Source: Methanoculleus sp. 7T (GTDB taxonomy: Archaea > Halobacteriota > Methanomicrobia > Methanomicrobiales > Methanoculleaceae). From it: 64,000 bases of DNA. A program made the position numbers and the translations under genes. The stretch's first letter is position 1, and each line of letters starts with the position of its first letter. Below the pieces are notes generated by a model, which was not told where the DNA came from, did no database searches, and saw nothing but the letters and a program-made list of their open reading frames with translations. The stretch is taken from positions 372,001 to 436,000 of the forward strand of contig NZ_JALPRP010000001.1 in NCBI RefSeq assembly GCF_023195915.1, given 5' to 3'. Positions 5,472 to 62,476 of this stretch are shown in pieces.

Positions 5472-5774
5472 TTATCTCGATTTCTGCTTGGCCCCGAGAA
5501 CAGACACCTTAGCGCGCCGCACGCTCCGGCGCACCCGCACGTCCATCGTGGGAGCGCCTCCTCTGCCACGCCCACCACGCCCGCCACGCCGGCCGCCACG
5601 GCCGCCGCGGGGGTCCTGCCCTTCCCTGCTCGCCCGCTTCTGGATATCGGCCGCGGGCTTGAACCGCTGGTTGGGACCGGGTTTCTTCACTTCGCCTTCA
5701 CTTGCAGGGACGAGCCGTATCTGCCCCTTTACGCCCTTAACCTGGGCCCACTGAACACTTCCTGTCTTTCCCAT
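5472..5774 (-). CDS. Small basic protein with Arg/Gly-rich (RGG-like) tract; possibly DUF5350
   Basis: 100 residues from ATG 5774, which has a GGAG site about eight bases upstream; a longer in-frame reading to 5909 has no support. The N-terminal 45 residues (MGKTGSVQWAQVKGVKGQIRL...) look like a compact conserved domain. About residues 54-75 are a dense RGG/RG tract, and the C-terminus is Arg/Lys-rich. Such tracts bind RNA and are disordered in other organisms. I think this corresponds to a small family restricted to Methanomicrobia (DUF5350), but that label is from memory and unsure. It sits downstream of gatE with a 136-base gap. Confidence 0.7.
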   Translation of the reverse strand: MGKTGSVQWAQVKGVKGQIRLVPASEGEVKKPGPNQRFKPAADIQKRASREGQDPRGGRGGRRGGRGGRGRGGAPTMDVRVRRSVRRAKVSVLGAKQKSR

Positions 5775-5910
5775 GGATAAAACTCCTTCATAATTATGAG
5801 CGGACCCGCTGATAAAAGTAACCCGGGAGCCCCGGCCGGGATCGATCGCCGAGGTGCAGATCCGGGACGGCCGTCCCGGACCCGGATTGACGCGGCGGGT
5901 TGTGCCCAAG

Positions 5911-7770
5911 TCAGGCGAGCAGCCGCTTGAGTTCGCGCCGGAGGGTCTCGCTGACGACCTTGCCGTCGACGCTCCCCCGGAGTTCCTGCATAACGACGCC
6001 CATCAGGGGGCCGAGCGCACCCATGCCCCGCTCCCTGGCAAACTCCTCCCGTTCGGCCACCACTCGGCGCACGATTGATTCCACGTCCTCCTGCGAGACG
6101 GCGGGGGCCAGTTTCCCGATGGCCGCATCCACCCGCTCTTGGGGCGTTGCGGCACCCTCGCCCGCCGTCCGTGCGAGTTCGGCGAGGAGGTCCGGGATCG
6201 CCTCCTTTGCAGCCCGGTTGGCCTCGACGGCAGAGAGGAGGGCAAGGATCTCGTCCTCGCTCACCCGGTCGACGGCCACGCCGTCGCGGGCGAGCTCCCG
6301 GCAGGTGGCAAGGAGCGTCCGAGCCGCGATGGTGGGGCGGACGCCTGCGGCGACGGCCGCTTCGAACGTCGGCAGCCGCTCGGAGAACGCCATCTGCCGG
6401 GCCAGCGCCTCGTCAAGCCCGAACTCCCTGACGAACCGCTCCGCCCGGTGGGTGAGGAGTTCGGGCACCTTGATGCTCTCCCAGAGGGCTTCGTCGATAT
6501 CGACCGGGAATACGTCGGTCTCGGGGTACATCCTGGCGGCTCCCGGGAGGGGGCGCATGTAGGCCGAGCTCCCCTCTTCGAGCATCTTCCGGGTCTCCTC
6601 CGGCACACCCGCTAGCGCCATCTCCGCACGAATCATCACCTGCTCCACCGCACATCCGGCGCGCTCTCTCCCGGCCGCCACGATGACGACGCAGTCTTCT
6701 TCGGCGGCGCCGACGAACTCGCGGAGGCGCGCCACCTCTTCTGCGGTGACGCCGTAGGCGGGGAGCTCGTCGGTGTGGAAGATACCGCCGACACCGCACT
6801 TCTTCGCGTAGTCGGACATCTCGCTCCCGAGGCGGCGGCCGGGCTGGATCTCCCGCCCGACAAGCCCGGCAAACCCGCAGAGCCTGATGGCGAGGATGGC
6901 TTTCGCCTTCTTCAGGATGGACGACTTCGTCCCGGAGAAGAGGGCGGTGACGTCGATGACGTTGTGGTCCACCCGGGCGCCCCGTTCCCGAAGTTCGTCG
7001 CGGATCGCGAGGAGATTGACCTGCCGCTCGACCTCGCGCCTGACCACCTCGGCGATGAGATCGAGTTCCTGAACGCCCTTGATCTCGACCCGTGCGCCGC
7101 CTGCGATGGAGACGTTGATGTCCTGCCGGATCGTCCCGAGCCCCCGCTTCACCCTGCCGGTCGAGCGGAGGACCATCCCGATGTACTCGGCGACCCGCTG
7201 AACGGCCTCGGGGGTGTGCATGCAGGGGGCGGTCGTGATCTCGACGAGCGGGATCCCGAGGCGGTCAAGGGAGAAGGTCTCGCCCTCCACCCGCTGCGCA
7301 GCTTCCTCCTCAAGGCAGATCGTCTCGATCCGGCACCCGTCCGGGAGGGCGCCTGAGAGCCCGACAAGCGCCGTCCGCTGGAACCCGCTGGTGTTCGAGC
7401 CGTCGATGACGAGTTTGCGCATCGTGTGGACCTGCTCTGCGGGCGTCATCCCGAGCATCTTTGCGATCGTGAGGCAGACCTCGAGCGCCTCGGGGTTCAT
7501 CGGGGTCGGGGGCTCCTCGTCGTGCTCCACGAGACAGACCGTGTCGTAGGTGTAGTAGCAGAACTTCCGGACGAGTTTCATCTCCTCCTCGGCCGCCCGG
7601 TCGATCTCCCCAAGTTCGCTTGCCGTCGCCCGGAGGTAGCGGTAGAACTCCCCGGTCCGCTCGGCGGTGTCACGGAGGACCGTGGGGCAGCGGCAGAAGA
7701 GTTTCTCGGCCGTGTCGAGCTGCTGGTGGATCTCGATCCCGGCCTTGAGGCCGAGTTCTTTGTAGTCCAT
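5911..7770 (-). CDS. gatE: Glu-tRNA(Gln) amidotransferase subunit E
   Basis: 619 residues. GatE is the tRNA-binding and kinase/transamidase partner of the archaeal GatDE complex, which converts Glu-tRNA(Gln) to Gln-tRNA(Gln). Visible hallmarks are GLKAGIEIHQQLDT at the N-terminus, the GatB/E cradle motif RGLGTIRQDINVSI near residue 210, an inserted AspRS-like domain in the middle, and a helical YqeY-like C-terminal tail. Its ATG directly abuts the gatD stop (adjacent bases 7770/7771), as expected for obligate partners. There is no glnS-type gene in the window. Confidence 0.96.
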   Translation of the reverse strand: MDYKELGLKAGIEIHQQLDTAEKLFCRCPTVLRDTAERTGEFYRYLRATASELGEIDRAAEEEMKLVRKFCYYTYDTVCLVEHDEEPPTPMNPEALEVCLTIAKMLGMTPAEQVHTMRKLVIDGSNTSGFQRTALVGLSGALPDGCRIETICLEEEAAQRVEGETFSLDRLGIPLVEITTAPCMHTPEAVQRVAEYIGMVLRSTGRVKRGLGTIRQDINVSIAGGARVEIKGVQELDLIAEVVRREVERQVNLLAIRDELRERGARVDHNVIDVTALFSGTKSSILKKAKAILAIRLCGFAGLVGREIQPGRRLGSEMSDYAKKCGVGGIFHTDELPAYGVTAEEVARLREFVGAAEEDCVVIVAAGRERAGCAVEQVMIRAEMALAGVPEETRKMLEEGSSAYMRPLPGAARMYPETDVFPVDIDEALWESIKVPELLTHRAERFVREFGLDEALARQMAFSERLPTFEAAVAAGVRPTIAARTLLATCRELARDGVAVDRVSEDEILALLSAVEANRAAKEAIPDLLAELARTAGEGAATPQERVDAAIGKLAPAVSQEDVESIVRRVVAEREEFARERGMGALGPLMGVVMQELRGSVDGKVVSETLRRELKRLLA

Positions 7771-9003
7771 TCAGATCGACCTCCGCTGGATCTCGCCCGC
7801 AAGGTCGGTCTGCATCAGGATGCCCGCCCGCTCGGGATCGGACTCGTTCCCGAGCACCCACATCAGTTTCACGAGCGCCGCCTCGGGGAGCATATCCTCG
7901 CCCTCGATCACGCCGATCGAGAGGAGGTCTCTTCCGGTGTTGTAGACACGGTCGCAGACCCGGCCGTGCAGGCACTGCGACGTCATGACGACGGTCATCC
8001 CGCCGTCGATCATATCCCGGAGCCTTGGGATCCACTCCGTCGAGACGTGCCCGAGGCCGGTCCCGGAGAGGACGAGGCCTGCGTAGCCCTCGAAGGCGTC
8101 GAGGACCCGGGGAGGCATCCCGGGGTAGAAGTGGAGGAGGCCGCAACGCTCTTCGAGCGCATCGTGGAGTCTCGGCTCCTCGGTGCCCCGCCGCACCGCC
8201 TCGTCCGAGAGGGTGACCGAGAGCGAGGGGTAGTCGACGTAGCCGAGCGGCGCCGACCCCATGCTCTGGAAGGCGTCGCGCCGGGAGGTGTGCATCTTCC
8301 GGACCCTCGTCGCCCGGTGGATGGCGCACCGGTCGTCGTTCGTTGTCGCGTGCATCACGACCGCGACCTCACCGAGGTCGCCGGCGGCGACGGCGGCGCT
8401 GCAGAGGGTGTTCATGGCGTTGTCGGAACTCGGGCGGTCGGCGGACCGCTGCGACCCGACAAAGACGACCGGCACCGGGGTCTTGAGCATGAACCGAACC
8501 GCAGCGGCCGAGTAGGCCATCGTGTCGGTGCCGTGCGTGACGATCACCCCGGATGCGCCGTGCCGGATCTCATCGTAGATCGTCCGTGCGAGTTCCTGCC
8601 AGATCGCCGGACGCATGTTCTCGGAGAGGATGCTTGCTATCTGGCGGTCGCGGTAGCGGGCGATATCCCCGAGTTCCGGGATCGCCCGCAGGATGTCGCT
8701 CGCCGAGAACTGGCTCGTCACTGCCCCGGTCCGGTAGTCCACCCTGCTTGCGATTGTCCCGCCGGTGGATATGATCGAGAGTTCAGGGAGGTCGGGGTTC
8801 TGGACGACGACCCCGGCTCCTGCCGGCGGCTGCGGGGCCGGACGCTCGACCAGTTCGATCTTCTCCGGGGACGCCCCGATGTTGTAGCCGTTGTCGAGTT
8901 TGACGACGGCCATTCCGTTCCGTTCGGCGATGTAGGTGCCGGTGAGCGCGGTCCCGCCGTTGGCGTAACGCACCAAATCCCCGGCTTGGAGTGTTTCGGT
9001 TAT
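7771..9003 (-). CDS. gatD: Glu-tRNA(Gln) amidotransferase subunit D (asparaginase-like), non-canonical start
   Basis: GatD supplies ammonia from glutamine. The asparaginase-type active site is visible: STGGTIASRVDY (first Thr), VTHGTDTMAYSA (Thr-Asp) and the lysine in the NDDRCAIHRATRVRKMHTS region. The N-terminal AGD...LDNGYNIG barrel precedes it. The first canonical start is TTG at 8976, but it cuts through the conserved AGDLVRY segment. The open frame continues upstream as ITETLQAGDLVRY to a stop at 9022-9024 without any ATG, GTG or TTG. The coordinates given use the ATA at 9001-9003, eight bases after a GGAGG and overlapping the argH stop. Confidence 0.9.
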   Translation of the reverse strand: MTETLQAGDLVRYANGGTALTGTYIAERNGMAVVKLDNGYNIGASPEKIELVERPAPQPPAGAGVVVQNPDLPELSIISTGGTIASRVDYRTGAVTSQFSASDILRAIPELGDIARYRDRQIASILSENMRPAIWQELARTIYDEIRHGASGVIVTHGTDTMAYSAAAVRFMLKTPVPVVFVGSQRSADRPSSDNAMNTLCSAAVAAGDLGEVAVVMHATTNDDRCAIHRATRVRKMHTSRRDAFQSMGSAPLGYVDYPSLSVTLSDEAVRRGTEEPRLHDALEERCGLLHFYPGMPPRVLDAFEGYAGLVLSGTGLGHVSTEWIPRLRDMIDGGMTVVMTSQCLHGRVCDRVYNTGRDLLSIGVIEGEDMLPEAALVKLMWVLGNESDPERAGILMQTDLAGEIQRRSI

Positions 9004-10478
9004 GCTATCATCCTCCGTGATTCAGTTATAAGGTCTTCAAACGCACGCGAGAGCGCCCCTTCAGTCTCCTCCGCCCATGCCGCGTCCCGGGCGAGGAGTT
9101 CTTTCTGCTCCGCGAGCTGCACCGCGACCGCGGCGGGCGCCGGACCGCCGACGATCTTCCGCACGGCGACGGCGTGGCGCGGGTCGAGGACTGCGTCGAT
9201 CCGCTCTTGGGTCACCCCCAGGTCCACGACCGAGAGGCCGGCCGCTTCCCGGGCGGCGCCCTCGAGCGTGGCGAGGTCGAGCGAGCCGTGCCTGACCGCC
9301 CGCCCGACGATCCGGTGGGCGGTGCGGAACGGAAGTCCGTATTCCCTGACGAGGACGTCGGCGAGTTCTGTCGCGGTGGAGAACCCTCTGCCCGCCTCGG
9401 CGGCCATCCGGTCGGTGTTGAAGGTCGCGGTCCCGATCATGCCGGCAAGGAGCGGGATGCTCTGCCGGACAGCCTCTACCCCCCGCCAGAGGTGCGGGGT
9501 CAGTTCCTGGAGGTCGCGGTTGTAACTCATGGGGAGGCCTTTCGTGATCGTGATCGCCGCGGCGAGTTCCCCGGCGGCAGACCCGGCCTTTGCCCGCATG
9601 ATCTCGGCGACGTCCGGGTTCTTCTTCTGGGGCATGATCGAGGAGGAGGAGCAGTAGGTATCGTCGAGTTGCACGAACCCGACGAACGCGGTGCTCCAGA
9701 GGACGAGTTCCTCGCAGAGGCGGCTTACCGTGGTCATGCAGACGGCGGCATCGGAGAGCACCTCGAGCGCGAAGTCCCGGGCGGCGACTGCATCCATGCT
9801 GTTTGCCGCCGGGCGGGAAAAGCCGAGGAGCCGTGCGGTGTAGTCGCGGTCGAGCGGGAAGCCGGTCGAGGCGAACGCCGCCGAACCGAGGGGCGAGACG
9901 TCCACCCGGGCATAGGCATCCCGGAGCCGGGCGGCGTCGCGGGAGAAGGCCTGCTCGTAGGCGAGGAGGTAGTGGGCCAGCGTCGTGGGCTGGGCGTGTT
10001 GCAGGTGGGTGAAGCCCGGCATCACCGTCTCGGTGTGCCCGGCGGCAACGTCGAGCAGAGTCCGCCGCAGGTCGGCAAGCGACCGCACGAGGGCGATGAT
10101 CTCCTGTTTCAGCCGAATTCTCACGCAGGTGGCGACCTCGTCGTTCCGTGACCTGCCCATGTGGAGCCGGCCGCCGAAGTCCTCCCCGACCCGGTCGATG
10201 AGGTAGGCTTCCTTACCGGCGTGGATATCCTCAAACCGCTCGTCGAACGCCTCCGCCGGGAGGCCGTGGTCGTGGAGGTCGAGGAGCGCCGCCATCAGCG
10301 CACGAGCGGGGGCCTCGTCGATGATCCCCTGCCGCCGAAGGCCGAGGAGGTGCGCCATATCCACGAGGAGGTCCGCCTCCGCTATCCAGCGGTCGGCGTC
10401 CATCGATGCGAGAAAATGCTCGAGGTCGGCCGAACGTTCGCCGGCGAGGCGACCCTGCCGAATCTGATCCGAACGCAT
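9000..10478 (-). CDS. argH: Argininosuccinate lyase
   Basis: 492 residues, full length for the fumarase/aspartase superfamily enzyme that splits argininosuccinate to arginine and fumarate (last step of arginine synthesis). The signature loop SSSIMPQKKNPD lies near residues 279-290 and contains the catalytic Ser; HMGRSRNDEVAT near 105 and GFTHLQHAQPT near 155 are the other two conserved regions. Its 3' end overlaps the 5' end of gatD, and the last codons (AGG ATG ATA) supply the Shine-Dalgarno sequence for gatD. Confidence 0.96.
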   Translation of the reverse strand: MRSDQIRQGRLAGERSADLEHFLASMDADRWIAEADLLVDMAHLLGLRRQGIIDEAPARALMAALLDLHDHGLPAEAFDERFEDIHAGKEAYLIDRVGEDFGGRLHMGRSRNDEVATCVRIRLKQEIIALVRSLADLRRTLLDVAAGHTETVMPGFTHLQHAQPTTLAHYLLAYEQAFSRDAARLRDAYARVDVSPLGSAAFASTGFPLDRDYTARLLGFSRPAANSMDAVAARDFALEVLSDAAVCMTTVSRLCEELVLWSTAFVGFVQLDDTYCSSSSIMPQKKNPDVAEIMRAKAGSAAGELAAAITITKGLPMSYNRDLQELTPHLWRGVEAVRQSIPLLAGMIGTATFNTDRMAAEAGRGFSTATELADVLVREYGLPFRTAHRIVGRAVRHGSLDLATLEGAAREAAGLSVVDLGVTQERIDAVLDPRHAVAVRKIVGGPAPAAVAVQLAEQKELLARDAAWAEETEGALSRAFEDLITESRRMIA

Positions 10479-10902
10479 TCTATCAACAGTCCTGTCTGTA
10501 CCGTTTGGCCGGGGGAGAGATTAAAACCACGCTCCTGCATGGACGGCAAGGAACTCCGGGGTGCTCAAATTCTGTCTTGGTAGCAGTCCCCAACCGCCGG
10601 GGGGGTGGGTGCCGGACCCCGCAAGAGGATACCCGTAAACTCCTCTCTGTCGAACTCCCACTCCCCGGGGCGGGGTGGGGTTACAAACGTTGTCATCAGG
10701 TGAGACAGGGGAGGGGGGCCACCCCCCTCCCCGTCGGCCCCTTCCCCGGGCGCGATAAACGCCCGGTGGCACAGCGGGAGTTTGAGCATCGTTAATCCCA
10801 ATGCACTGCCCCCGCTCCGCCCCTAACGATCATCCATATAGGATAATATTTAGGCAATAATTGATACTAAAGTGCAAAAATATCGCCGGTTTTCGACAAC
10901 AC
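10479..10902. other. Intergenic region with GC-rich dispersed element copy A
   Basis: No convincing gene. About 10590-10790 is a GC-rich stretch of self-complementary G and C runs (e.g. ggggaggggggcc/acccccctcccc near 10709-10731) ending in gataaacgcccggtggcaca. Closely similar words recur at 24890-24962. Short open frames here are by-products of the composition. From about 10830 the base composition becomes AT-rich and leads into the ABC importer promoter. Confidence 0.6.
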
Positions 10903-10908
10903 TATATA
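10903..10908 (+). promoter_or_regulatory. TATA box of the NitT/TauT-type ABC importer operon
   Basis: TATATA within an AT-rich stretch. It would place the transcript start near 10932, about 30 bases before the lipoprotein start codon at 10963 and just before its GGAG site at 10953-10956. This is a pattern call only. Confidence 0.45.
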
Positions 10909-10962
10909 GACAGTATAAAGAAAATACTCTACATACCCGTAATCACAGTCATGGAGATACGT

Positions 10963-11952
10963 ATGAGATCACTAACCGCAATACTTCTGGCCGTGGCCCT
11001 GGTCGCGGCATTCACGTTCGTCAGCGGATGCATGGGCACCGACACCGGAAAGACGACGCACCTCCGGATCGGCTACCAGCCGAGCACCCATCAGGTCGCC
11101 CACATGACCGCGATGGAGAAGGGCTGGTGGAAAGACGACCTCGCACCCCTCGGCGTCACTCAGGTGACCGACTACTCCTTCCCCACCGGTGCGCCGGAGA
11201 TGAACTCGATGCTCGCCGGGAATATCGATATCGCCTACGTCGGCTCGGCGCCGTTCATATCCGCCCGGGCGAGCGGCCTCGACGCAAAGATCGTTGCGGC
11301 CGTCCAGACGCAGGGCTCAGACCTCGTCCTCCGGCCCGAGATCCCGTATGAGAAGCCGCAGGACCTCAAGGGCCTGACCATCGGCACCTTCCCGCCGGGA
11401 ACCATCCAGGACACCCTCCTCCGGAACTGGCTCCAGCAGAACGGCCTTGACCCCGAGAAAGACGTGACCATAAAACCCATGGGCCCCGGCGACGCCACGA
11501 CAGCGATCATCGCCGACCAGATCGACGGCGTCTTCCTGCCGCACCCGGCACCGGCCGTCATCGCGAACAAGGGTGCCGGGAGGACGGTCGTCGCCTCCGG
11601 CGAGATGGCGCCGAACCATGCCTGCTGTGTCCTCGTTGCGAGCGGCAAACTCATCAGGGAGCAGCCCGAACTCGTCGAGCAGATCGTGAAGACGCACATC
11701 AAAGCGACCGAGTACAACCTCAAAAATCAGGACGAGGCGGCGATGATCTTCTCGAAGAAGACCGGTCAGGATATCGCGGACGTCCGGAAGTCCTTCAACG
11801 AGTGGGACGGCACCTGGGCCGCGGACCCGAACCTCATCGTCGACTCGGTCGAGGACTACGCCCGGATCCAGTACGACCTCGGCTATATCAACAAACACCT
11901 CACCAAAGACGATATCTTCGATCTCTCGTTCTATGAAAAAGCCCGGGCCTGA
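10963..11952 (+). CDS. ABC transporter substrate-binding lipoprotein, NitT/TauT (SsuA/NMT1) type
   Basis: 329 residues from the ATG at 10963, which has GGAG six bases upstream; in-frame codons at 10861 and 10951 are less well placed. An N-terminal hydrophobic helix ends in a lipobox (FVSGC, near residue 19), followed by the periplasmic-binding fold with GYQPSTHQVAHMTAMEKGWW, the usual N-lobe start of SsuA/TauA/ThiY-like proteins. It is therefore an extracytoplasmic receptor tethered to the membrane. Family substrates include nitrate, sulfonates, taurine, thiamine precursors and aromatic acids; the ligand cannot be decided here. Permease and ATPase genes follow. Confidence 0.9.
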   Translation: MRSLTAILLAVALVAAFTFVSGCMGTDTGKTTHLRIGYQPSTHQVAHMTAMEKGWWKDDLAPLGVTQVTDYSFPTGAPEMNSMLAGNIDIAYVGSAPFISARASGLDAKIVAAVQTQGSDLVLRPEIPYEKPQDLKGLTIGTFPPGTIQDTLLRNWLQQNGLDPEKDVTIKPMGPGDATTAIIADQIDGVFLPHPAPAVIANKGAGRTVVASGEMAPNHACCVLVASGKLIREQPELVEQIVKTHIKATEYNLKNQDEAAMIFSKKTGQDIADVRKSFNEWDGTWAADPNLIVDSVEDYARIQYDLGYINKHLTKDDIFDLSFYEKARA

Positions 11953-57504: not shown

Positions 57505-57936
57505 ATGGGTGGCACGAAAGATTCTACGTATCTTGATGTCAAGAAGGCCCTCTCCCGGCGGTTCTCTCCCCAGGACGGGTGGCAGTTTGCATGGTATCCC
57601 ACCTACGGCAGTGTGCAGCCGGAATGTGTGCTCTCCCGCCGGGTCGCCGGCAAGACGGAGCGGGTGGTCGTGAGCGTGAAGATGACCCCGGAGGTCCCGA
57701 AGGACACCGTCGAGGAACTCCTGAGCCAGTGCCGGACGCTCGCCGCAGGTAACGTCAACGTCGACAAGGCGGTCTTGATCGTACCCGGCGGAGCAGACGT
57801 CTCCCGGGTCCCCGAGGGGATCGAGATTCTCGAGATGGGAAACTGGCAGGTCGTCGACGGCCGCATCGCCTGGTCAAAGAATATCGAACGCAGCGCGTTC
57901 ATTCAGGAAGAGCGCGCGAAGAGGGGTCTGGCGTAA
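57505..57936 (+). CDS. Uncharacterised protein
   Basis: 143 residues from ATG 57505, with GAGGAT seven bases upstream. No signal peptide or membrane helix. The alternating hydrophobic strands (RVVVSVKMTPEVP near 55-67, KAVLIVPGGADVSRVPEGIEILEMG near 92-116) and the helix VEELLSQCRTLAAG give an alpha/beta fold, perhaps nuclease- or receiver-like, but I cannot assign a family. The ending IERSAFIQEERAKRGLA is charged. Codon use is like its neighbours. Confidence 0.65.
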   Translation: MGGTKDSTYLDVKKALSRRFSPQDGWQFAWYPTYGSVQPECVLSRRVAGKTERVVVSVKMTPEVPKDTVEELLSQCRTLAAGNVNVDKAVLIVPGGADVSRVPEGIEILEMGNWQVVDGRIAWSKNIERSAFIQEERAKRGLA

Positions 57937-58245
57937 GCCGAGCGCCCTTCACAACACTTTTAAACGACATTTTGGCAGACTCTCCGCCTGAAGGAGGGGG
58001 CACGCCGCACCATTGGTGCTTGAACTCCCGCTTGGCCGGCTGGCCCCCGGCGCTCCCGGACACTTCAGACGAAGTAGGTGACACGCACATTCATAGATGA
58101 GAGATTTTACCGGGAGCCGGGCCCACATCCACCAGACAAGATTTTCACCGTCCGGCGCGCCCCACATTCCCGCCATGTAGCACCTGTTTTCAGGTAAAGG
58201 GCCGCTGTGACAAAACCGATGTGTAGACGCGTGACACAGAAAAGG
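57937..58245. other. Intergenic region upstream of the subtilase promoter
   Basis: No gene supported. The region is of average composition with no copy of the dispersed element. It ends with the strong TATA box for the protease gene. Confidence 0.5.
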
Positions 58246-58433
58246 TATATAGCGGAACGCTGAGCTCTCAACCGTGGGTACCGAAATCGGTATCCCGAGA
58301 TGCGCGGGGGCCGCCCATCCCCAGGTCTGACGCCCGGATGACGCACCCCGCGTGCCCGGAGGCATGACGATCTGGGATTTCGGACTGTAAAAGCGTTGCG
58401 TCGTGCCTCCATCTATCGACACGGAGGTGAATT
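58246..58433 (+). promoter_or_regulatory. TATA box and long leader of the subtilase-lipoprotein operon
   Basis: TATATA at 58246-58251, preceded by an A-rich cagaaaagg (BRE-like), predicts a transcript start near 58275. That leaves a leader of about 160 bases before the ATG at 58434, unusual in a genome where most transcripts here look leaderless or short. At 58276-58295 the leader could form an 8-bp stem (GGGTACCG / CGGTATCC, tetraloop AAAT, one G-U pair). A GGAGGTG site lies just before the ATG. Confidence 0.6.
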
Positions 58434-60374
58434 ATGAAAACAAAAAAGATCCGGGGATTGCCGGTAGTTCTGGCACTCTTCCTCGTGGGAATGGCGGCTG
58501 TGCCGATGGTGAGCGCACAGACAGGTATCGAAGGTTCGTTCGATCTGGAGACCTGCCGAACTGAAGCGCTTGAACACATATCCACGCAGGAGGGCATTCC
58601 CGTAGGAGAGTTAACCATCATAAACGAAGCCTTTGCCACGTTCCCCCTTACGGGACAGACCCTCTGGGGGGCAAAGGTACTGGATGCCAAGTCGTCTGCC
58701 ATCTACGGGGTGTATCTGGACGAACAGGGGAAGGTTGTCGATGTCGATGCCGTCAAGGAGGCCGAAGCGGCCGAGAAGAGCAAACGATACGGAAAACTTG
58801 ATCCGGATCTCGCTGAGCGCGTCTCAACCCTGCGGTCCGACGAGAAGGTCGTCGTCTGGATCTGGTTGACGGAGCCTTCCATGGACCGGTCGCGGTTCCA
58901 GGGCAACCTGAGCGAGGAGCAGTACCAGGACCTGTTGAGCCTGCAGAGAACCACGTATGCCGCCCATGAAGCGCCGGTGATCGACTTCCTGAAGGCGCAG
59001 GACTCAACCGTAGTCTATGCCTGTCAGTATGCCCCGGTGGTCTTCGCGGAGGTCTCGCGAGAGACGATCCAGGACCTGAGCAAGCGGTCGGACGTCGTAT
59101 CGATGGACATCACCCGGAGTTACGAACCTGCACTCAACAGCGCAGCGCCGACCGTGAAGGCGGACGTCGTCTGGGGAAGAGGGAAGACCGGCACCGGCAT
59201 CAAGGTCGCGATTGTGGAAGTGCCGGAATCGGGTACAAGTTCAAGAATAGAATTCTCAAATCCGTACTTACTTGACGGATTGTCATACCGCCCCGATCTG
59301 CCCGCGAGTTCCCATGCAACCGAAGTGGCTGGTATCGTTGCAAGCACCCACTCAACGTACAAAGGCATTTCCTACGGCGTACCGGCGCTGCTCTCGGCAA
59401 ATGCCAACACAGGGTATGATTCCAGTATTATCCCTGCAACGGAATGGGCGATAACGCAGGGTGCGAACGTTCTCAGTTGTAGTCACGGCAGAAACACATC
59501 GAGGGAACTCGACAGTCTAGCCCAATACTACGATCATGTCGTCTGGAGCAATCACCTGACTGTTGTTGCCGCTGCAGGCAACTCACCCGATGACGGTAAA
59601 GTAACGTCCCCGGGCCTCGCCTATAATGTCATTGCCGTTGGCGCTTTTGATGATAGGGACACATCGACCTGGGCAGACGATGTCATGCTGGGAGACTCTG
59701 GCTATAACGACCCGATATCGCAACACGGCGATCGAGAGAAACCGGAAGTAGCCGCCGTTGGGGCCGGGATGATCTCCACACTAGCTGCCAGCCCCTGGGT
59801 CGGTTATTGCGACGACTTTGGAACAAGTTATGCCGCACCGGCAGTATCCGGCGAGGCCGCCCTGCTGATGCACCGGCAGAGCCAGCTCACGTCATGGCCG
59901 GAAGCCGTCAAGGCCATCATCATGGCAGGAGCGATCCACAACATCGAAGGTGCCAGCAGGTTGAGCGACCGCGACGGTGCAGGCGGGATCGACTGTTCGA
60001 TCGCCGATGATACCATCGCGAACAACCGCTGGTGGGCGAACACCGTGACCTACGGCGACTTCCCGAAGACCTACGTCTTGAGCGGCATACCCGCTGGGAA
60101 GAAGGTCAGGGTCGTCGCCGCGTGGGACTCGCATCCGCCGGATTCGCACCCGCCTTACGGCACGATCAACGATCCGCTGCAATCCGACTTTGATCTTATC
60201 ATCTACGATCCGAACGGCGAGCAGGTTGAAGTCTCGTCATCCTATGACAACAACTACGAGATCGGTCAGTTCGAGACGGAAATGAGCGGGAACTACCAGG
60301 CGAGGGTTGTTAAATACCGGTTCGAAGGCGCATCCGAGCGTCTCGCGCTGGCTTACAGCATCAGCGACCCCTGA
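58434..60374 (+). CDS. Secreted subtilisin-like (S8) serine protease with divergent Asp site
   Basis: 646 residues. Signal peptide at 1-28 (LPVVLALFLVGMAAVPMVSA). Residues ~35-115 resemble a PepSY-like/prodomain segment and ~135-228 a subtilisin inhibitor I9-like propeptide. The S8 domain covers about 240-520. His294 is in SSHATEVAGI, oxyanion Asn383 in AAAGN, and Ser465 in DFGTSYAAP. The usual Asp strand (VAIID-TG) reads VAIVEVPESG, with Glu262 in the Asp position. The C-terminal ~110 residues (GIPAGKKVRVVAAWDSHPPDS ... SDFDLIIYDPNGEQVE) form a P/pre-peptidase-like beta domain. Probably exported and self-processed. First gene of an operon with three lipoproteins. Confidence 0.88.
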   Translation: MKTKKIRGLPVVLALFLVGMAAVPMVSAQTGIEGSFDLETCRTEALEHISTQEGIPVGELTIINEAFATFPLTGQTLWGAKVLDAKSSAIYGVYLDEQGKVVDVDAVKEAEAAEKSKRYGKLDPDLAERVSTLRSDEKVVVWIWLTEPSMDRSRFQGNLSEEQYQDLLSLQRTTYAAHEAPVIDFLKAQDSTVVYACQYAPVVFAEVSRETIQDLSKRSDVVSMDITRSYEPALNSAAPTVKADVVWGRGKTGTGIKVAIVEVPESGTSSRIEFSNPYLLDGLSYRPDLPASSHATEVAGIVASTHSTYKGISYGVPALLSANANTGYDSSIIPATEWAITQGANVLSCSHGRNTSRELDSLAQYYDHVVWSNHLTVVAAAGNSPDDGKVTSPGLAYNVIAVGAFDDRDTSTWADDVMLGDSGYNDPISQHGDREKPEVAAVGAGMISTLAASPWVGYCDDFGTSYAAPAVSGEAALLMHRQSQLTSWPEAVKAIIMAGAIHNIEGASRLSDRDGAGGIDCSIADDTIANNRWWANTVTYGDFPKTYVLSGIPAGKKVRVVAAWDSHPPDSHPPYGTINDPLQSDFDLIIYDPNGEQVEVSSSYDNNYEIGQFETEMSGNYQARVVKYRFEGASERLALAYSISDP

Positions 60375-60414
60375 ACCCACTTATTTTTGTATACACGTCA
60401 ACGGAGGGACTGCA

Positions 60415-61074
60415 ATGAAATTGCACATTTACTCATATGTCGCAATGATAATCTTCGTCGTCCTCGCGACCGCCGGATGTCTGGGACCGGCCGGCACCGC
60501 CGTAAACGCCACCCCGGAGCCTACACCAGAGCCTTGCGAGACTTGCAGCGTCCCCGAGGGATTCTGCGGCCCGCCCGGGGTCTGCCCGGGGGGGGAGCCG
60601 GTGAACGGCATCTATGCCTTCACGGACAGGAACACCTACCGGATCGGGGACGTGGTGGAGTTCGGCATCGTCAACTGCGGCGATGAACGAAAGGCGTTCG
60701 GCACCCCAGATCCGTGGGTGATTCAGCAATGGGTCACAAACGCATCCGGGGTCACTCATCAGGGGAGCTGCGGTGACCCGGCGGTGGGGAACTGCACCGG
60801 CGGTATGTGGGAGATGATCGGCATCAGCGGGTGGTATCATACAGGCGAGACGGTGTACCTCAACCCCGGGGAGAACTGGACGGTGCAGTGGAACACTACA
60901 GACTGGTGGGATACCGCAAAGGTAAGAGGAGACCACGTAGAACCATTTCCGTATCGGATGAGGAGTGACGGGTCCTCATATCAGATCAGCGACGACCCTC
61001 TTGCTCCCGGGATATACCGGGTGTGGTATATGTGGTATAGTAACAACGCATCCAAGGAGTTCGAGTTTGTGTGA
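60415..61074 (+). CDS. Cys-rich Ig-like lipoprotein, tandem paralogue 1
   Basis: 219 residues from ATG 60415 with GGAGGG seven bases upstream, 40 bases after the protease stop. Signal helix and lipobox (ATAGC, Cys22). A Thr/Pro linker (NATPEPTPEP) leads to CETCSVPEGFCGPPGVCPGG, then a beta-sandwich with TYRIGDVVEFGIVNCGDERKAF, NPGENWTVQWNTT and LAPGIYRVWYMW. That layout is reminiscent of BsuPI-like intracellular subtilisin inhibitors and other Ig-like domains. Extracytoplasmic. Paralogous to the two next genes. Confidence 0.8.
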   Translation: MKLHIYSYVAMIIFVVLATAGCLGPAGTAVNATPEPTPEPCETCSVPEGFCGPPGVCPGGEPVNGIYAFTDRNTYRIGDVVEFGIVNCGDERKAFGTPDPWVIQQWVTNASGVTHQGSCGDPAVGNCTGGMWEMIGISGWYHTGETVYLNPGENWTVQWNTTDWWDTAKVRGDHVEPFPYRMRSDGSSYQISDDPLAPGIYRVWYMWYSNNASKEFEFV

Positions 61075-61139
61075 CGGATGAAGCGGAAAACTCCGGTCTC
61101 CGGAGGCACAAGGATGTGCACGCAAACGGAGAAACCACC

Positions 61140-61784
61140 ATGAAACTACAGGTTCGCGTAGCCATTGCGATGATAACTCTCATTGCCGTTCTCGCAAGCG
61201 CCGGGTGCCTCGAACCAGCCGGCACCGCCGTAAACGCCACCCCGGAACCGACACAGGAGCCCTGCGAGACCTGCACCGTCCCCGAGGGATTCTGCGGGCC
61301 GCCCGCGGTCTGCCCGGGGGAGCCGGTGAACGGTGTCTACGTCTTCACGGACAAGAACACCTACCGTATCGGGGAAGTAGTGGAGTTCGGCATCGTCAAC
61401 TGCGGTGATGAGCGCATACTGTTTGCTCACCCATCCCCGTGGTTGATTGAAAGATGGATCACAAACGCATCCGGAGGCATGCCGCGGAACAATACCAGCG
61501 GCACGTGGGAGATCATCGGCGATGCCGGGAGTACTCCATGTGCAGGGCGCTACCTCAATCCAGGACAAAACTGGACGGTGCAGTGGAACACTACGGACTG
61601 GAATACTCCGGAGTGGAATGCTGCAATATGGAGTTGGAATACTGCAGAGTGGAACTCCACAGAGATATCAACTAAATTGGAGCGGTGGAGAGTCCACCCG
61701 GTGGACGATAATGTCACCCTTACTCCCGGGAAGTACCGGATATGGTATGGGCGCGACCTCACCAAGGAGTTCAAGTTTGTATGA
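61140..61784 (+). CDS. Cys-rich Ig-like lipoprotein, tandem paralogue 2
   Basis: 214 residues from MKLQVRVAIAM (ATG 61140, GGAG upstream); an in-frame codon at 61071 overlaps the preceding gene. Lipobox ASAGC (Cys23). Same CETCTVPEGFCGPPAVCPG and TYRIGEVVEFGIVNCGDER core as paralogue 1. Unique is a Trp/Asn-rich stretch in the C-terminal half (NTTDWNTPEWNAAIWSWNTA then EWNST), encoded by imperfect tandem 24-39-base repeats near 61590-61670. Same predicted location and fold. Confidence 0.8.
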   Translation: MKLQVRVAIAMITLIAVLASAGCLEPAGTAVNATPEPTQEPCETCTVPEGFCGPPAVCPGEPVNGVYVFTDKNTYRIGEVVEFGIVNCGDERILFAHPSPWLIERWITNASGGMPRNNTSGTWEIIGDAGSTPCAGRYLNPGQNWTVQWNTTDWNTPEWNAAIWSWNTAEWNSTEISTKLERWRVHPVDDNVTLTPGKYRIWYGRDLTKEFKFV

Positions 61785-61888
61785 AGGGGGAGAAGCAGGC
61801 AACGCCGGTCCCCGGCGTCCCCGTGAGTTCCGAGCCTGCACACGGTCTAACATGCCCAATCCCCATGAGGCATAAGGATGTGCGCACA

Positions 61889-62476
61889 GTGAAACTGCGG
61901 ATCCACGTATCCATCGCGATGATAGCCCTCATTGTCGTCCTCATAAGTGTCGGGTGCCTGGGCCCGGCCGATACCGACCTGACTGCTAACACCACGCAGG
62001 AGCCGACACCGGAGCCCTGTGAGACGTGCACCGTCCCTGAGGGATTCTGTGGGCCGCCCGCGGTCTGCCCGGGGAAGCCGGTGAATGGCACCTACGTCTT
62101 CACGGACAAAAACGCCTACCGGACCGGGGAGGTGGTGGAGTTCGGCATCGTCAACTGCGGCGAGGAACGACGGGCGTTTGTCACCCCAGACCCGTGGTGG
62201 ATTCAGAGATGGGTCGCGAACACATCTGGATGCACGCCGGAGAACTGCACCGGCGGCATGTGGGAGACCATCGGCCGCAGTGGGAGAGCTCATACAGGTG
62301 ATATTGTATATCTCTATCCCGGAGATAACTGGACGGTGCAGTGGGATACAGCATCGTGGGATACTGCACTGGGGAAGAACGTGGAGTCGGTGGGCAACAG
62401 CACTCTCACTCCCGGGACGTACCGGATATGGATATGGAACGGTATCAACATATCCAAGGAGTTCGAGTTTGTGTGA
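61889..62476 (+). CDS. Cys-rich Ig-like lipoprotein, tandem paralogue 3
   Basis: 195 residues from GTG 61889 (VKLRIHVSIAM), chosen by homology with paralogues 1 and 2 and an AAGGATG eight bases upstream; ATG 61865 is an alternative. Lipobox SVGC (Cys23), linker NTTQEPTPEP, Cys motif and TGEVVEFGIVNCGEER core as in the others. It lacks the Trp-rich insertion and is the shortest. The spacer before it keeps recognisable pieces of the spacer before paralogue 2 (cataaggatgtg / cacaaggatgtg), so whole gene-plus-spacer units were duplicated. Confidence 0.78.
   Translation: MKLRIHVSIAMIALIVVLISVGCLGPADTDLTANTTQEPTPEPCETCTVPEGFCGPPAVCPGKPVNGTYVFTDKNAYRTGEVVEFGIVNCGEERRAFVTPDPWWIQRWVANTSGCTPENCTGGMWETIGRSGRAHTGDIVYLYPGDNWTVQWDTASWDTALGKNVESVGNSTLTPGTYRIWIWNGINISKEFEFV

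Follow-up and report, generated by a model that had tools for sequence, protein, structure and literature searches.

What do three tandem lipoproteins do for the secreted protease whose gene they follow? The question is posed by a four-gene unit on the + strand at the end of a 64,000-nucleotide stretch of DNA from Methanoculleus sp. 7T (contig NZ_JALPRP010000001.1, positions 372,001 to 436,000), referred to here as the window. An S8-family gene and three paralogous lipoprotein genes lie exactly where an earlier note, made from the letters alone, had placed them, with intergenic gaps of 40, 65 and 104 bases in gene order. The unit is a real operon, since the conservation of its layout in other species rules out a chance arrangement, and it holds this genome's only such lipoprotein cluster and only PF00082 match. 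We propose that the lipoproteins bind the protease while tethered to the cell surface and most likely act as self-protecting inhibitors, a reading to which we assign a probability of about 0.42. The unit starts upstream of the S8 open reading frame and includes a promoter resembling the B recognition element (BRE) and TATA sequences, and a structured leader RNA with the Shine-Dalgarno sequence (SD) in its 3' part. Its features are as follows.

About 58237 to 58251, + strand: archaeal promoter, BRE-like AAAAGG then TATATA, identified by sequence and kept 5' of S8 and of the lipoprotein-only loci of genomes G002, G014 and G019.
58262 to 58365, + strand: conserved structured RNA domain of the S8 leader, two hairpins with a conserved UGACG loop (covariation; covariance model R1, 107 bits, E 1.9e-26, this copy being a member of the training set of the model).
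58358 to 58429, + strand: possible switch region with GGAGGCA (58358-58364), anti-SD UGCCUCC (58404-58410) and SD GGAGGUG (58423-58429), based on folding and repeated in most aligned leaders.
58434 to 60374, + strand: secreted S8 (subtilase-family) protease, 646 amino acids, PF00082, under purifying selection.
59394 to 59843, + strand: catalytic-core segment, codons 321-470, a cassette exchanged between lineages (dN/dS comparison, i.e. of non-synonymous and synonymous divergence).
60415 to 61074, + strand: lipoprotein 1, 219 amino acids, variable type C.
61140 to 61784, + strand: lipoprotein 2, 214 amino acids, variable type unique in the sample, structure model m89cca782b9cc.
61889 to 62476, + strand: lipoprotein 3, 195 amino acids, GTG start, variable type unique in the sample.

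Of 35 Methanoculleus genomes, nine have the lipoproteins and seven an S8 orthologue; six genomes carry both, three carry lipoproteins only, 25 carry neither, and in one the S8 gene lies where a contig ends (Fisher P 3e-4, uncorrected for relatedness). At every readable S8 locus of the genus the lipoproteins are situated directly downstream, the only exception being the one at the contig end. The loci are hosted by two genomic sites, of which site 1 adjoins the gene that flanks the window unit downstream and that we take, from reading its sequence, to encode a family B DNA polymerase. Site 1 holds S8 with three lipoproteins in G000, G011, G026 and G030; the S8 frame of G026 is broken in the signal peptide and the third lipoprotein of G030 near its start, both of which may be assembly errors. 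At the same site, G032 contains an S8 remnant (the C-terminal 173 residues) and one lipoprotein, and G002, G014 and G019 contain lipoproteins only. Site 2 is occupied by a frameshifted S8 gene with two lipoproteins in G011, by S8 with one lipoprotein in G019, by two lipoproteins only in G023, and by an S8 gene running off the contig in G018. An integrase/transposase-like gene, recognized by reading, lies between the lipoprotein pair of G023 and the next leader copy (L074:9963-10928).

The earlier note, which tentatively tied the lipoproteins to the protease in function, had named their wide occurrence without S8 genes as a refutation. Such loci were found in part: four of the 11 Methanoculleus loci hold lipoproteins only, with frames that are open and constrained, and three of the four have the S8 promoter in place. 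In these three (G002, G014 and G019, site 1), the region corresponding to window 58110-58276 stands directly 5' of the first lipoprotein gene, and both the leader RNA and S8 are missing. Since a partial S8 remnant is present in G032, the comparison favours loss of S8 by deletion at site 1; for these three loci the reverse order, in which S8 was inserted elsewhere, is possible.

The co-occurrence that the earlier note proposed to check extends beyond the genus, where the lipoproteins track the S8 gene across lineages. In Methanofollis G067, the gene after S8 (48% identity) encodes a lipoprotein that matches Big_14 over two stretches (54.3 bits, cutoff 27), and a BLASTP comparison of the window protein P0004 with the Methanofollis protein gave 9e-12 (single comparison). 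In G322, a distant archaeon sharing only the phylum, the S8 gene (profile E 5.7e-156) is followed 38 bases on by a membrane-anchored single-Ig (immunoglobulin-like) protein, which is the only match of that genome to the lipoprotein profile and gives 5e-10 in BLASTP to P0004 (again a single comparison). Weak matches of this profile to signal peptides only (about residues 3-60) were excluded from all counts. G408 carries an S8 gene of this clade whose two lipoprotein neighbours match PrcB_C weakly (14.5 and 13.3 bits against a cutoff of 24). The G408 genes are located at L117:8844-9806 and 10332-10985 (-), with 5744-8644 (-), and the genome contains two further S8 fragments, one of them adjacent to a lipoprotein of the same kind. 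Two Methanofollis genomes, G052 and G091, carry an in-frame fusion of the S8 prodomain with both Ig (Big_14) domains, from which the catalytic domain has been lost (L079:10009-11769, - strand, and L080:8860-10593, + strand). Each fusion is one open frame, 577-586 codons long with different junctions, and the low dN/dS of the prodomain (0.26-0.44) and the Ig domains (0.13-0.34) makes the frames look maintained; judged from these frames, the fusion is a natural joining of partner and protease parts.

The N-termini of all three window lipoproteins consist of a hydrophobic stretch followed by G-C, with the lipobox Cys present in the sequence and lipidation predicted. The Cys element and Tyr strand motif reported in the earlier note are shared by all three proteins, as CETC-[ST]-VPEGFCGPP-[GA]-VCPG and Y-R-x-G-[DE]-V-V-E-F-G-I-V-N-C-G, respectively, and the mutual identity of the proteins is 61-68%. 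The first half, comprising the lipobox, the CETC-VPEGFCGPP-VCPG element and the first strands up to NCGDE, changes very little within the family. The second, Ig/MG2-like half is the variable part of each protein, differing in sequence and length and falling into about eight discrete types. Within some types, the variable half of cross-species copies shows a dS of 0-0.07, in contrast to 0.2-0.5 for the constant half of the same genes, and the variable half has therefore been exchanged as a cassette. No variable type occurs twice within a single tandem array of two or three genes; with a permutation P of 0.052, or 0.095 without the near-duplicate G026, this absence is only a hint.

The AlphaFold2 model of lipoprotein 2 is an Ig-like sandwich with a pLDDT (predicted local distance difference test) of 74.5. 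Its closest fold is the MG2 domain of alpha-2-macroglobulin (PF01835; Z 8.5, 2.7 Å, 89 residues), a likeness on the borderline of what common arrangements give, and the fold alone shows no function. Weak MG2 matches are present in 17 of 28 aligned homologues, and seven of the 28 match Big_14 (PF20251) at E up to 0.1 (best 1.5e-14), some homologous neighbours passing its cutoff. The model and these homologues bear out the Ig-like assignment of the earlier note. The window lipoproteins themselves, however, reach neither cutoff, give no Big_14 or PrcB_C (PF14343) match and no Pfam or NCBIfam family over cutoff, and differ from the Big_14 and MG2 domains in their additional CxxC..C..C element and exchanged half. 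Membership in BsuPI (PF12690), the Bacillus intracellular proteinase inhibitor that the earlier note had brought in, is not supported: P0002-P0004 gave no match to its profile at E up to 10, and BsuPI does not appear in the solved-structure profile hits. The PDB matches listed for the lipoprotein 2 model do not include the BsuPI fold. BsuPI resembles the present case in that an Ig-like domain is proposed to act on a subtilisin; unlike the exported lipoproteins, it is cytoplasmic.

The S8 protein matches PF00082 with 97.8 bits (cutoff 21.8, E 8.9e-28) and consists of a signal peptide without lipobox, a PepSY-like and I9-like prodomain (about 30-232), a catalytic domain (about 233-525) and a PPC-like C-terminus; the prodomain names come from sequence reading and a weak PepSY_2 match in one homologue. 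The earlier designation as a secreted S8 protease thus holds for family and export, whereas the canonical catalytic Asp is replaced by Glu (VAIVE). In the catalytic domain (E262, H294, N383 and S465), His294, the oxyanion Asn383 and Ser465 within GTS are invariant and kept in all full-length members, while the canonical Asp (D[ST]G) is replaced by Glu in every Methanoculleus orthologue as well as in G067 and G408, and by Met in G322. Most other aligned S8 relatives retain a D[TS]-type motif, and the clade with the altered residue is the clade with adjacent lipoproteins. The predicted structure (pLDDT 45 from a six-row alignment) is too poor for active-site geometry. Selection on the gene is purifying, with w < 0.4 in every segment. 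Codons 321-470 of G030 and G011-C50 differ by a dN of 0.000 and a dS of 0.029, as compared with a flank dS of 0.15-0.47, and a dS of 0.74-0.84 separates this segment from the other core type. By this comparison, the protease core (residues 321-470) behaves as a cassette exchanged between lineages, and diversification, suggested earlier for the lipoproteins, is found in both lipoproteins and protease. An anti-phage system was rejected as a candidate, PADLOC having returned for the unit only the generic ‘subtilase’ model (66.8 bits, residues 200-502) and weak IetS matches, and nothing for the lipoproteins. Viral origin was likewise rejected; P0001 (S8) has no match in viral contigs and viral structure matches are weak.

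In the mechanism that we consider, the membrane-tethered Ig/MG2-fold lipoproteins would bind S8 at the producer's own surface and restrain it there. The lipid-anchored, Cys-rich constant half would serve as a stalk, and the exchanged Ig half would carry specificity. Strains that lose S8 would retain the lipoproteins in the manner of orphan protection genes, against relatives' proteases with other core cassettes, and selection may have favoured such retention. The retention of the partner with and without the protease, the tandem non-identical partners, the exchangeable halves and cores, and the prodomain-partner fusion fit a tethered specific restraint better than a single-purpose anchor. Four points weigh against this proposal. 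S8 homology is established by profile, and the Glu-for-Asp replacement leaves the catalytic activity uncertain. Matching between core and lipoprotein types is not significant over six loci, type A being found with core 2 in 2/2 loci and with core 1 in 0/4. Big_14/MG2-like domains are common and also found without S8. Finally, PrcB, a lipoprotein that works with an S8 protease, serves in anchoring and assembly and not in inhibition (PMC8167434); we keep the inhibitor reading below one half because PrcB shows that S8 lipoprotein partners can be assembly factors.

This precedent belongs to the dentilisin complex PrcB-PrcA-PrtP of Treponema denticola, also an operon of an S8 gene and surface lipoprotein partners, in which PrcB is required for the PrtP protein and is the proposed anchor of dentilisin (PMC8167434). 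By analogy, the lipoproteins may fold, stabilise and hold a soluble S8 enzyme at the surface, the paralogues positioning it on different targets, and besides PrcB itself such a role is favoured by an S8 protein with a signal peptide but no lipobox, by partners that are lipid- or membrane-anchored in three lineages, and by the weakly PrcB_C-like neighbours at the same place in G408. Nevertheless, lipoprotein arrays persist without any clade S8 gene in G002, G014 and G023, and there is little reason for an assembly factor to exchange its binding half between species. The partners also differ from those of dentilisin in being Big_14/MG2-like rather than PrcB_C, downstream, tandem and variable, in accompanying a protease without lipobox, and in outlasting it. 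Taken together, an anchoring or assembly role appears somewhat unlikely, yet it is the chief alternative to the inhibitor reading.

The persistence and cassette diversity that sit poorly with an anchor would suit lipoproteins that are variable surface binders, capturing particles or other cells, or substrates with an independent function; S8 would then trim them or act on the captured material. Ig domains also exist without S8 elsewhere in the phylum. This explanation is improbable, given that clade S8 was never found without a neighbouring lipoprotein or anchored partner at readable loci and that the prodomain-Ig fusions tie the Ig domain to the protease. The Glu or Met at the catalytic Asp position, set against the D[TS] motif of most relatives, could also mean that cleavage is abolished and that the operon encodes a surface complex without proteolysis. 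Conservation of His, the oxyanion Asn and the Ser with GTS in all full-length members, together with purifying selection (w under 0.4), makes such a pseudoprotease very improbable.

The S8 leader (58262-58436) raises a separate issue, in that its 58-base block recurs 5' of other genes. Model R1 finds copies in 31/35 Methanoculleus genomes, with 10-12 in the window genome and 21 in G011; beyond the genus, it also finds them in four further genera of the same family and, rarely, elsewhere in the order. Two-sided changes were observed in 9/16 pairs, with 63 cells as compared with 14 in shuffles and 3-15 when slid (61 aligned matches), counts that lean towards the model because the alignment was fitted to it. 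As the minimum free energy (MFE) z-score is only -1.85, it is covariation, not stability, that supports the structure. No Rfam match was obtained at E up to 5 on window 57930-58450, nor at the gathering threshold on six loci with copies. The leader belongs to a structured RNA family that is supported by covariation and that matched nothing in these Rfam searches. Copies were noted at L195, L196, L199-L205 and L207-L213, and a second subtype has CACCC/GGGUG in place of the CAUCC/GGAUG of the first.

Most copies lie 66-80 bases 5' of a start codon, and a signal-peptide-like N-terminus is present in 41/48 downstream proteins as compared with 46/176 control genes (P 8e-14, from a crude hydropathy test on partly related copies). 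The downstream products include reprolysin-like (sub-cutoff), transglutaminase-like, C39-like, DUF6345 and S8 proteins, and weak matches to zinc phospholipase C and halocin C8. The Cys-rich halocin C8-like proteins follow the leader copies at L209:3324-3508 (where the protein scores 20.9 bits, cutoff 24) and in the L073:12443-12545 region; their position suggests that antagonistic peptides may belong to the same regulon as the S8 leader. At L199, L202, L203 and others, mature proteins that are unrelated to each other come after a leader, an SD and signal peptides that resemble one another (MNGKIGMRAFSVLLA...), so that leader and signal peptide look like a single reusable cassette.

At the 3' end, most leaders contain GGAGGC, a complementary GCCTCC, and then the SD. 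The MFE fold of the window leader (-69.0 kcal/mol) leaves the SD mostly free, and the alternative with paired SD (-64.9 kcal/mol) is 4.1 kcal/mol weaker. The leader may act as a ribosome-site switch, and it would probably gate translation of the protease. The succession of a conserved structured domain and mutually exclusive anti-SD/SD pairing is reminiscent of riboswitch-type 5' leaders; in contrast to those, the downstream genes share secretion rather than a metabolic pathway, and Rfam offers no match.

A still broader interpretation regards the locus as a polymorphic effector-immunity system, in which a secreted protease with interchangeable cores and tethered Ig inhibitors would be joined to a new archaeal class of regulatory RNA coordinating, as one regulon, secreted hydrolases along with antagonistic proteins. 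It shares with such systems a putative effector whose core varies between conserved flanks, non-identical partner genes in tandem, and orphan partner loci; unlike them, its effector would be a protease. We regard the full scheme as rather doubtful.

No description of the operon layout or of the RNA in Methanoculleus was found in the literature, most subscription journals being outside the search. Among protease-plus-lipoprotein systems the operon represents a new variant, and the greater novelty would lie in the RNA family, should it be validated. If the proposed inhibitor function is right, a methanogen protease would possess a swappable set of surface-bound partners, offering a direct test for dedicated self-protection against an archaeal exoprotease, and the multicopy leader common to unrelated secreted proteins would be a candidate for overall control of secretion in Methanoculleus.

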